Positions 2,895 through 7,933 of a DNA stretch of 11,054 bases are shown here, piece by piece (positions within the stretch are counted from its first letter, which is position 1; the number at the start of each line of letters is the position of its first letter). Position numbers and translations under genes: made by a program. The notes beneath the pieces were generated by a model. The model had not been told where the DNA came from and did not search any database. It saw only the letters and a program-made list of their open reading frames with translations. The stretch spans positions 1 to 11,054 of the forward strand of contig JADFON010000035.1 of the NCBI GenBank assembly GCA_022562855.1, read 5' to 3'. The stretch comes from Candidatus Zhuqueibacterota bacterium. Lineage in GTDB: Bacteria; SM23-31.

Positions 2895-3500
2895 TTATTT
2901 TTGGGACTTGATTTCATGCCATGTTTTGTATATTTGTGGTTGCTTTGGCTTGTCTTTTTGCATCTCTCCTAACGGTTCGCACGACTTGAGAGACCGGTGC
3001 AGTTGTTCGGGAAGCGACTGGTAAAGCCTTGTCCCGTCGGTCTTCCACTTAATCATTTCATCGTCAACATCTTTTACAATTTTTGCCGGGTTTCCTACAA
3101 CTACTTTGCGGTTGGGAATCTTCATATCTGCCGGAACGAAACAGAGCGCGCCTATAATGCACTCATCTCCTATCACGGCGTTATCCATAATTACAGAATT
3201 CATACCTATTAATGTATTGAAGCCTATCGACGCCCCGTGTATAATCGCCCCGTGACCGATGTGTGCGCTTTTCTGAAGCCTGACCGTCACGCCGGGAAAC
3301 ATATGAATAGTGCAGTTTTCCTGTACGTTACATCCATCCTCGATGATAATCTCTCCCCAATCACCCCTTATCGCCGCTCCGGGACCGACATATACATTTT
3401 TCCCGATCGTTACATTTCCTGTAACGGTGGCGTTGGGATGAATAAAAGCCGATTCGTGAACCACGGGGATAAAACCGTCGAATTCGAATATATTATTCAT
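2895..3500 (-). CDS. paaY: Hexapeptide-repeat thioesterase PaaY
   Basis: A 201-residue left-handed beta-helix protein with hexapeptide repeats from about residue 20 to 145 (for example VTIGKNVYVGPGAAIRGDWG), like E. coli PaaY in length and sequence. The gamma-carbonic-anhydrase-type metal ligands are visible as His66, His83 and His88, the last two in AHIGHGAIIHG. The C-terminal tail is helical and charged. PaaY is reported to hydrolyse CoA thioesters formed when the ring-opening step misfires, returning CoA to the pathway. The ATG at 3500 lies only six bases from the inverted repeat bounding the upstream cassette, so the entire leader belongs to or adjoins that element and shows no Shine-Dalgarno sequence. 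Its native upstream region therefore appears to have been displaced from paaJ. Confidence 0.94.
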   Translation of the reverse strand: MNNIFEFDGFIPVVHESAFIHPNATVTGNVTIGKNVYVGPGAAIRGDWGEIIIEDGCNVQENCTIHMFPGVTVRLQKSAHIGHGAIIHGASIGFNTLIGMNSVIMDNAVIGDECIIGALCFVPADMKIPNRKVVVGNPAKIVKDVDDEMIKWKTDGTRLYQSLPEQLHRSLKSCEPLGEMQKDKPKQPQIYKTWHEIKSQK

Positions 3501-3506
3501 ATTTTA

Positions 3507-3535
3507 GACACAGATTTACACTGATTAAACTGATT
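3507..3535. repeat. Left inverted repeat of the GxxExxY cassette
   Basis: A 29-base arm beginning GACACAGATTTACA and ending TTAAACTGATT on the plus strand. It is the reverse complement of 4001-4029 with a single mismatch (28 of 29). It ends six bases from the paaY start codon. The word ATCTGTGT and its complement recur in the 7831-7933 element, so this is a family of repeats and not a single chance pair. Confidence 0.9.
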
Positions 3536-3553
3536 AAAAGCGATTCACATCTA

Positions 3554-3940
3554 TTATATATCATGTATTTTTCGTTTAATATCCATTTTTTTACCAAAGT
3601 TTATTAAAAGACCAATATCAATATCGGTAGCTTTTAAGTAGTTTACTAACTGAACCTCATGAATTTGATTGAGTTTTTCTATAGCTTTCACTTCTACAAT
3701 TACCTTGTTCTCTATGACGATATCTGCAAAATACTCTCCGACTAATGCCTTTTCAAAGTAAACATTTATCGGATATTGCTGTTCAACTTTTAGCTCTATT
3801 ATTCCCAATCTATATACCAATGCATTTTCGTAAATTTTCTCAAGAAAGCCATATCCTAATTCATTGTAAACATAGTACGCTTCTTTGATTATTTTCTCTG
3901 TAATGTCAGAATATTTATAGTCTCCCTTTATATATTTCAT
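3554..3940 (-). CDS. GxxExxY-family protein, PD-(D/E)XK nuclease-like
   Basis: A 128-residue protein with the family signature GFLEKIY at residues 31-37 (Gly31, Glu34, Tyr37). Further on is Asp73 followed by Glu83-Val-Lys85 (ADIVIENKV then IVEVKA), the spacing expected of a PD-(D/E)XK nuclease core. The family is widespread, often multi-copy, and has no settled function that I know of. It has no link to phenylacetate chemistry. It reads in the operon direction between paaJ and paaY, is much more AT-rich than its neighbours (17 of 60 bases are G or C at 3601-3660, against 29 of 60 at 4321-4380 in paaJ), and is bounded by near-perfect inverted repeats. This points to an inserted cassette. No Shine-Dalgarno sequence is evident before the ATG at 3940. 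Confidence 0.9.
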   Translation of the reverse strand: MKYIKGDYKYSDITEKIIKEAYYVYNELGYGFLEKIYENALVYRLGIIELKVEQQYPINVYFEKALVGEYFADIVIENKVIVEVKAIEKLNQIHEVQLVNYLKATDIDIGLLINFGKKMDIKRKIHDI

Positions 3941-4000
3941 AAAATCGAGCTATTCCAGATATCATTTAACGCTTCAAAAATTATTATTCTAAACAGTGGA

Positions 4001-4029
4001 AATCAGTTTAATCAATGTAAATCTGTGTC
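4001..4029. repeat. Right inverted repeat of the GxxExxY cassette
   Basis: The 29-base partner of 3507-3535, beginning AATCAGTTTAATCA and ending AAATCTGTGTC on the plus strand, inverted and matching at 28 of 29 positions. It ends nine bases from the paaJ stop codon. I looked for an extension of the pairing or a target-site duplication outside the two arms and found none that is clean; both flanks are AT-rich. Confidence 0.9.
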
Positions 4030-4038
4030 ATAATAAAT

Positions 4039-5262
4039 TTAAACTCGTTCAATAATTACTGCCATTCCCTGACCGACCCCAACGCACATTGTGCAGAGAG
4101 CATATTTTTCTTTGCGAATTTCAAGTTCGTTCATTGCTGTGGTAATCAGCCGCGCTCCGGTCATGCCGAGAGGATGACCGATAGCGATGGCTCCGCCGTT
4201 TGGGTTTACCCTGGGATCATCATCGGCTAAAACCAGTTCGCGCAGACAAGCGAGACTTTGCGCTGAAAACGCTTCGTTTAACTCGATAACCGACATATCA
4301 TCCAGTGACAGCCCTGTTTTGCTCATCACTTTTTCTGTTGCTCCAACAGGACCCATGCCCATTAATCGAGGTTCCAAACCGACCACTGCAGACCCGACAA
4401 TCCTTGCCCGCGGCTTCAAATTAAATTCTTTTGCAGCGGATTCGGAACCGACCAACAAGGCGCATGACCCGTCGTTGATCCCGGAGGAATTTCCTGCCGT
4501 AACCGACCCTTTGCCATCAAGGCGAAAGACTGGTTTGAGCTTTGAAAGTATCTCCGTTGTTGTGGCTGGTCTGAGAAATTCATCATGTTTAAACTGCAAT
4601 GGATCAGCTTTTTTTACCGGTATCTCAACCGGGGTTATTTCTTTTGCAAATCTTCCGTTTTCACGTGCTGCCGCCGCTTTTTTTTGCGAGTTGAAGGCAA
4701 ATATATCCTGGTCTTCGCGGTTTATATTGTACATCTCCGCAACATTTTCCGCAGTGTTTCCCATCGAGTCGATGCCAAACAATTTCTCTATGACCGGGTT
4801 TACAAATCTCCAGCCGAAGCTCGAATCGAATATTTCCGCTTTTCGGGAAAAAGCCGCTTCCGGCTTACTCAGCACAAAGGGCGCCCTCGTCATATGTTCT
4901 ACACCGCCGGCAATATACAAATCACCATCACCCAGCCGAATCGCCCGGGACGCATGGACAACGGCGCTCATCCCGGATGCGCACAACCTATTCACTGTTT
5001 CGCCGGGAACCGATGCAGGTATCCCTGCGATTAGAAGCGCCATTCTTGCCACGTTTCTGTTGTCTTCGCCAGCCTGGTTTGCACAACCGAAAATAACATC
5101 GTCAATCCGGTCGCCCGGAACAGTGGAGTTACGTTCAATGATTTTTCTGATCGTCCAAGCCGCAAGATCATCTGCACGGATATTCGATAGAGAACCGGCG
5201 TGCTTTCCTACCGGGGTTCTGACAGCGTCAAATATGTAAGCGTCTCTCAAATCATGCACCAA
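4039..5262 (-). CDS. paaJ: 3-oxoadipyl-CoA / 3-oxo-5,6-dehydrosuberyl-CoA thiolase PaaJ
   Basis: A 407-residue type II thiolase of the usual length. The acyl-accepting cysteine is Cys94 (NRLCASGMSAV), the histidine is His363 (AIAIGHPLGMTGARL), and the second cysteine is Cys393 (CVGVGQGMA); NEAFSAQ supplies the conserved asparagine. The N-terminus DAYIFDAVRTPVGKHAGSL is typical of beta-ketoadipyl-CoA thiolases, with a His in place of the more usual Arg or Tyr after Gly-Lys. In this pathway PaaJ acts twice, first on 3-oxo-5,6-dehydrosuberyl-CoA and finally on 3-oxoadipyl-CoA to give acetyl-CoA and succinyl-CoA. It starts eight bases after paaI, which indicates translational coupling, and is followed by the repeat-bounded cassette. 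The identity rests on family plus context. Confidence 0.95.
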   Translation of the reverse strand: MVHDLRDAYIFDAVRTPVGKHAGSLSNIRADDLAAWTIRKIIERNSTVPGDRIDDVIFGCANQAGEDNRNVARMALLIAGIPASVPGETVNRLCASGMSAVVHASRAIRLGDGDLYIAGGVEHMTRAPFVLSKPEAAFSRKAEIFDSSFGWRFVNPVIEKLFGIDSMGNTAENVAEMYNINREDQDIFAFNSQKKAAAARENGRFAKEITPVEIPVKKADPLQFKHDEFLRPATTTEILSKLKPVFRLDGKGSVTAGNSSGINDGSCALLVGSESAAKEFNLKPRARIVGSAVVGLEPRLMGMGPVGATEKVMSKTGLSLDDMSVIELNEAFSAQSLACLRELVLADDDPRVNPNGGAIAIGHPLGMTGARLITTAMNELEIRKEKYALCTMCVGVGQGMAVIIERV

Positions 5263-7821: not shown

Positions 7822-7933
7822 AAAAAAAACCTGACACAGAGTCACACAGATTTATTAAGAAAGACGCAGATATAAGAAAAATTATATTGTTAATCAGTGT
7901 AAATCATATTTGATCTGTGTCCATCAGTGTCAG
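7822..7933 (-). terminator. Possible terminator or attenuator after paaD
   Basis: Read on the minus strand, the 103-base palindrome forms a long imperfect stem whose 3' arm is followed, after GG, by eight T residues (complement of 7822-7829). A stem followed by a U-tract is the form of an intrinsic terminator, here starting seven bases after the paaD stop. The loop is far longer than usual, so termination may be only partial or absent. Confidence 0.3.
7831..7933. repeat. 103-base imperfect palindromic element related to the cassette repeats
   Basis: The element starts CTGACACAGAG and ends CATCAGTGTCAG on the plus strand. Its 21-base arms (7831-7851 and 7913-7933) match as inverted repeats at 17 positions. 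A further inner word AATCAGTGTAAATC (7892-7905) resembles the arms of the GxxExxY cassette at 3507-4029. There is no gene inside. It lies between runs of eight and seven A residues (7822-7829 and 7934-7940). It looks like a non-autonomous, gene-less relative of the cassette. Confidence 0.6.

Follow-up and report, generated by a model that had tools for sequence, protein, structure and literature searches.

The window, a stretch of 11,054 nucleotides from a Candidatus Zhuqueibacterota bacterium, contains a single GxxExxY gene (3554–3940, minus strand, 128 aa) enclosed by two inverted arms in the paa operon. The arms lie at 3507–3535 and 4001–4029, 465 nt apart, and are 29 nt long with one mismatch, as in the original prediction. 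The gene belongs to the PD-(D/E)XK nuclease family (TIGR04256, E=1.1e-37; PF13366 PDDEXK_3, E=1.3e-38) and is the sole gene between the arms, where no other Pfam family is found. On one side the cassette is flanked by a 3-oxoadipyl-CoA thiolase gene (pcaF/paaJ; 4039–5262, minus strand; NF006551 above cut-off). On the other side is a PaaY-like gene (2895–3500, minus strand; TIGR02287, E=2.9e-66, under the curated cut-off), the ATG of which is 6 nt outside the arm. The GxxExxY gene is co-directional with the surrounding paa cluster; the proposal that this orientation does least harm is drawn from a single locus and is not supported. Searches with the TIGR04256 and Pfam profiles find no transposase gene within the cassette, and the description of a compact unit with the PDDEXK_3 gene and no transposase holds. 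No target-site duplication is visible beside the arms, and Rfam gives no match in the window. The cassette is located in the paa operon and not in 23S rRNA.

The left/right inverted score of the cassette region is 26.5 without gaps. The highest score over 1000 shuffles is 14.5, which rules out a chance inverted repeat. The arms had been described as simple inverted repeats; the inversion stands at 28/29, but the arms are built as arrays of tandem units. Degenerate units of ~10 nt with the consensus ACACNGATT make up each arm and carry on inward of the 29 nt. The array on the low-coordinate side (3507–3552, plus strand) extends inward beyond the near-perfect 29 nt, and its unit series is GACACAGATT, TACACTGATT, AAACTGATT, AAAAGCGATT and CACAT (CACATCT over 3507–3552). 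The array on the high-coordinate side (4001–4029, minus strand) is the inverted copy of 3507–3535. The units recur in gene-less copies, and the arm belongs to a minority GACAC type.

To our knowledge, GxxExxY proteins form a common, often multi-copy family without known function. The window protein scores far above the curated cut-offs of TIGR04256 (128.9 versus 35 bits) and PF13366 (132.4 versus 22 bits). Its motifs are G31xxE34xxY37, D73, E83xK85 and Q97xxxY101. Across 28 homologs G31, E34, Y37, D73, E83 and K85 are invariant, and Q97 and Y101 (QxxxY) are kept in at least 90%. As a rule, PD-(D/E)XK proteins that carry QxxxY act on DNA as nucleases. The AF2 model of the protein (pLDDT 94) has a Cas4/lambda-exonuclease-like fold. 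A sequence search of solved structures finds no match for the protein; the nearest structure is Cas4 SSO0001 (4ic1; VIA Z 9.9, rmsd 5.2 over 102 residues, Foldseek E 2e-4), and lambda-type exonucleases and Holliday junction resolvases (Hjc) rank below it. By its modelled fold and QxxxY, the protein is a predicted Cas4/RecB-like PD-(D/E)XK nuclease, and likeness of fold does not prove function. Pairwise dN/dS is about 0.31, 0.10 and 0.12, and by these sequence comparisons the protein is under purifying selection, with an intact D-ExK...QxxxY site. Some GxxExxY copies are broken or truncated.

The host genome assembly (2.5 Mb, 491 contigs, 80% complete) contains one TIGR04256 gene, yet it has many arm-like sites. 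Read closely, these sites are palindromes of ~100 nt without a gene, composed of the same units as the cassette arms. One of these gene-less units is in the window at 7832–7932, between the paaG-like gene and paaD (92.9 bits, E=6e-20 in the window), and three lie in tandem on another contig (C201). A covariance model built from six gene-less palindromes, the unit at 7832–7932 among them, finds 12 places of 83–137 nt in the host genome at E<1e-6, plus weaker ones, and six of the 12 were outside the building set. A weak match in the window at 709–800 (19.2 bits, E=0.011), overlapping and just beyond the 3' end of paaZ (782–2842), is a possible decayed unit. The usual ends of a gene-less unit are TGACAC...GTGTCA, flanked by T-rich and A-rich sequence. 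None of the well-scoring units overlaps an ORF of 100 aa, and those examined are intergenic. When folded as single-stranded DNA, the window's unit is not significant (z -0.98), and two others are (z -3.5 and -4.5). A search of the host genome for the arm had been proposed as a test. Since it yields 12 confident gene-less units elsewhere, the arm is not confined to the cassette. Nor do its copies always flank GxxExxY genes, as one has the gene and at least 12 do not.

The same packaging is found in other bacteria. The GxxExxY loci come from named contigs covering many phyla, from sets of 98 and later 386 genomes (mostly of different families), from plasmids and from viral contigs. Inverted matches between the 300 nt on each side of the gene were scored by script, and a score of at least 16 was counted as strong. 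Strong inverted arrays flank ~55% of 180 GxxExxY genes in many phyla, with similar values for the discovery loci (54%, n=81) and the replication loci (56%, n=99). The rate is 1.7% for mismatched flanks, which combine the left side of one locus with the right side of another, and 0.1% for shuffled flanks. Flank length varied between runs (450 versus 300 nt), which alters the count of armed loci but not the contrast with these controls. Among ~90 other ORFs used as a control, the sole match of at least 16 not caused by runs of N is a further GxxExxY gene; this first control set gave two N-run artefacts and two matches that proved to be GxxExxY genes. By this score ~45% of GxxExxY genes are without strong inverted arrays, and some clearly have none, including three genes of one genome (G334).

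The gene is patchily distributed and is found in 71 of 386 genomes. There are six GxxExxY records on plasmids, one of which (Bacteroides finegoldii) has clear arrays. No match is found in the phage collection or in the defence-system library. GxxExxY genes are present in long viral contigs (L143–L148), with inverted arms that are AT-rich and have longer units. At one locus (L083:1150-1770) the gene is between two complete 21-bp hairpins, not half-palindromes, and another half copy follows.

At 55 of 67 loci the period of the arm arrays is 8, 9 or 10 nt. In 91 of 119 cases the outermost C[AG]C unit has a C in front of it and so reads CC[AG]C, compared with 22 of 223 for inner units. This CC cap is specific to the outermost unit, and the element therefore has defined ends. 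The match of an arm to its own partner (median 25.5/20) is far better than its match to arms of the same unit class (10.5/9.5), which indicates that the two arms of one element co-evolve.

The type of unit tracks the protein. Units were classed by a fixed rule as C-N-GAT, C-N-[AG]AG, CGAA[TC] or ACAGGAT. With these coarse classes, which leave 32 of 119 armed loci unclassed, unit type changes 5 times on the protein tree of 44 loci (shuffled mean 16.8, minimum 11) and 10 times on that of 87 loci (shuffled 32.2, minimum 26). When the closest discovery protein (median 55% identity) is used to predict the unit of a replication locus, 37 of 48 predictions are correct (permuted mean 20.9, maximum 35); below 50% identity the figure is 6 of 12. 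Paralogs in the same genome bear different units according to their clade (G064, G202, G209, G163, G287 and G291). In G064, for example, the YQEAL protein occurs with CGCAGATTA and the LLESAYE protein with CAGAGG. These paralogs rule out host composition as the cause of unit type. The co-variation could stem in part from joint inheritance of gene and arms, not from recognition.

Similar copies are dispersed within genomes. Three GxxExxY copies in one genome (G004) are 87–96% alike and have different flanks, and the similarity stops at about the arms; no target-site duplication is seen at these copies. Two loci of this genome (L031 and L108) have the same 13-nt insertion, CCCACAGGGCAGG, at the same position in several units of both arms, and the sister copy L045 is without it. 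Because the insertion is shared by several units of an array, the units seem to be homogenised within one element. A search for paaY synteny in relatives gives one distant paaY-like match, and it yields no clean example of a paaJ–paaY junction without the cassette, the check that had been proposed. One orthologous site, in the genus of G052, was compared in related genomes, and no clean pair of empty and occupied sites was found. A candidate empty site there was rejected, as the 'empty' relatives retain a decayed remnant of the 3' end of the gene. This indicates loss of an ancestral element by deletion and not a recent insertion. With neither a clean empty site nor a target duplication, the case for mobility rests on the dispersed copies and not on observation.

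Genomes with the gene are also enriched in arrays. Sites of the form CACAGAGN(1-3)CACAGAG were counted per genome. At least five sites are present in 29 of 71 genomes with the gene and in 12 of 315 without it (odds ratio 17, relatedness among genomes not corrected). The reversed pattern gives 86 matches, compared with 1420 for the true pattern. Five genomes (G370, G261, G069, G282 and G167) have 12 to 115 CACAGAG-array sites and no GxxExxY gene detected at E<=1e-30, which suggests relics or another mobiliser.

An unrelated family has a parallel architecture. TIGR02436 (S23, four-helix bundle) genes are flanked by inverted arrays in 19 of 28 loci (array-flanked loci L110–L128, L165–L168 and L131). 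Units of 7 nt are found in 17 of 21 S23 loci, compared with 4 of 67 GxxExxY loci (p=5e-11). One genome (G059) contains four S23 copies that are ~89–98% identical and at different places. The two families co-occur: out of 24 and 32 genomes, 16 have both (odds ratio 7), and in G001 they are side by side. As in all the cross-genome statistics but the tree-based counts, shared ancestry is uncorrected here. The S23 architecture was already known in the intervening sequences of 23S rRNA, which RNase III cuts (PMC4990558). None of the 20 S23 loci checked is within rRNA. At two loci (L121:1284-2238 and L128:1352-1970) an S23 element is located between tRNA genes, which recalls the known place inside rRNA. 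In a further genome (G013; L169 and L170) there are 15 TIGR02436-like genes that differ from the array-flanked ones: they are divergent and for the most part arranged as head-to-head pairs.

The comparisons show that gene and arms form one unit with defined ends and co-vary, that similar copies are dispersed at unrelated sites of one genome, that gene-less palindromic copies accompany the gene-bearing one, and that a protein with an intact active site is under purifying selection. The packaging, the change of unit with protein family and the scattered gene-less copies point to an undescribed, very widespread self-spreading element. The cassette is best read, with a probability of roughly 0.55, as the gene-bearing (autonomous) form of a widespread REPtron-like repeat family, in which a cognate PD-(D/E)XK nuclease recognises its own units and spreads the palindromes. 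Such an element would consist of two inverted arrays of 8-, 9- or 10-nt units around one GxxExxY nuclease gene, and the nuclease would recognise the units of its own element. It may nick or cut the arrays, either as a folded hairpin or cruciform or as a duplex repeat. The palindromes could then be spread within the genome by repair, by annealing or by replication from another copy, and the gene-less units would be non-autonomous passengers, comparable to the REP/REPIN spread by RAYT/TnpA-REP. Movement, cleavage and binding by GxxExxY elements are proposed here, not observed. An enzyme acting on the repeats had been part of the original prediction, and the intact predicted nuclease site and the unit–protein co-variation fit this idea; equivalent arms also enclose GxxExxY genes elsewhere.

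In a homing model, the gene-less palindromes are targets. The nuclease cuts an uninterrupted palindrome (as hairpin or cruciform) and gap repair pastes in the gene-bearing copy, in which the target is disrupted by the gene lying between the arms. The gene does occupy the loop position of a palindrome, the genome also contains palindromes of the same units without a gene, and Hjc and Cas4-like folds are among the nearest structures. This model is nonetheless unlikely. Gene-less units outnumber gene-bearing units 12:1 in the host genome, the opposite of efficient homing, and the arms move with the gene in G004, for which homing by itself has no need.

The arrays could also owe their spread to another enzyme, such as a Y1 transposase of the HUH type, or to errors of replication or repair, with GxxExxY as cargo or a late coloniser. 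Unit sequence follows the GxxExxY tree across phyla and among paralogs of one genome, and unit length differs by family (7 nt for S23, 8–10 nt for GxxExxY). Cargo should not predict the unit, which makes this explanation distinctly unlikely, even though some array-bearing genomes have no detected GxxExxY gene and the unrelated S23 protein indicates that the architecture does not require this nuclease.

It is improbable that the arrays are host regulatory, transcript-end or repair sites maintained by GxxExxY as a domesticated factor. The patchy presence (71 of 386 genomes), the broken copies and the dispersal of similar copies in one genome are not congruent with a host function, to which the purifying selection, the prolonged retention of an element at a single site within a genus and the intergenic position of the examined gene-less units would be suited. 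Spread at the RNA level, with pairing of the arms in the paa transcript and RNase III processing as in rRNA intervening sequences, is very improbable given the typical DNA substrate of QxxxY PD-(D/E)XK proteins, although complementary arms could pair in this way and the S23 sister architecture has such a precedent.

Under the preferred reading of a self-spreading, nuclease-bearing repeat element, the GxxExxY family gains a context and a testable substrate, and a large class of unexplained short bacterial repeats gains a possible origin. The correspondence between units and proteins, including paralogs of the same genome, would be a natural recognition table for a nuclease of ~15 kDa. A more tentative proposal unites GxxExxY and S23 (IVS-type) elements as two branches of a single class of selfish DNA, so far unrecognised, in bacteria and some archaea. 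In each, a small cognate protein would recognise short tandem words (8–10 nt or 7 nt) set out as inverted arrays and would spread these arrays, and many of the short repeats scattered in bacterial genomes (ACACGGATGA, CACAGAGA, CGCAGATTA and heptamers) would be non-autonomous copies.

Searches of the open-access literature with repeat words and family names returned incidental matches and no description of the element. The window protein is a clear member of TIGR04256/PF13366 PDDEXK_3, and the matches returned for this family mention no flanking arrays. Gene-less palindromes of ~100 bp beside a gene-bearing copy of ~520 bp resemble a MITE and its autonomous parent. Unlike a DDE-type insertion sequence or MITE, the GxxExxY cassette has no transposase or visible target-site duplication. 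Heptamer repeats, among them cyanobacterial STRRs and the TAACTGA repeats of Beggiatoaceae, resemble the present arrays as intergenic arrays of fixed short words in patchily distributed lineages. Unlike GxxExxY elements, they are described mainly as direct repeats and have no cognate gene. The TAACTGA repeats of Beggiatoaceae are intergenic short-word arrays in patchy lineages (PMC4679880). Their unit length matches the S23 class and not GxxExxY.

The closest likeness in working is to the REPtron (REP/REPIN and RAYT), in which one gene lies amid inverted palindromic repeats, many palindromes are gene-less, and enzyme and repeat co-evolve, as is also found for GxxExxY elements (PMC3116915, PMC8266576). 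The enzyme of the REPtron is an HUH Y1 transposase (TnpA-REP) whereas that of GxxExxY elements is a predicted PD-(D/E)XK nuclease, and REPs are single repeats of 20–40 nt whereas the GxxExxY repeats are arrays of 8–10-nt units with a CC cap. Because the defining HUH enzyme is absent, the cassette is not classed as a REPtron despite its REPtron-like working. The 23S rRNA intervening sequences with an S23p ORF have inverted arms and are cut by RNase III, and selfish behaviour has been proposed for them (PMC4990558). Like the cassette, they consist of a single ORF of ~120 aa within inverted arms. Their protein is unrelated (a four-helix bundle), they are located in rRNA, and their arms are described as simple stems. 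The GxxExxY cassette lies outside rRNA, and the non-rRNA S23 loci, unlike these simple stems, bear arrays of 7-nt units. The S23 parallel ties the GxxExxY elements to the long-standing question of what the 23S rRNA intervening sequences are.
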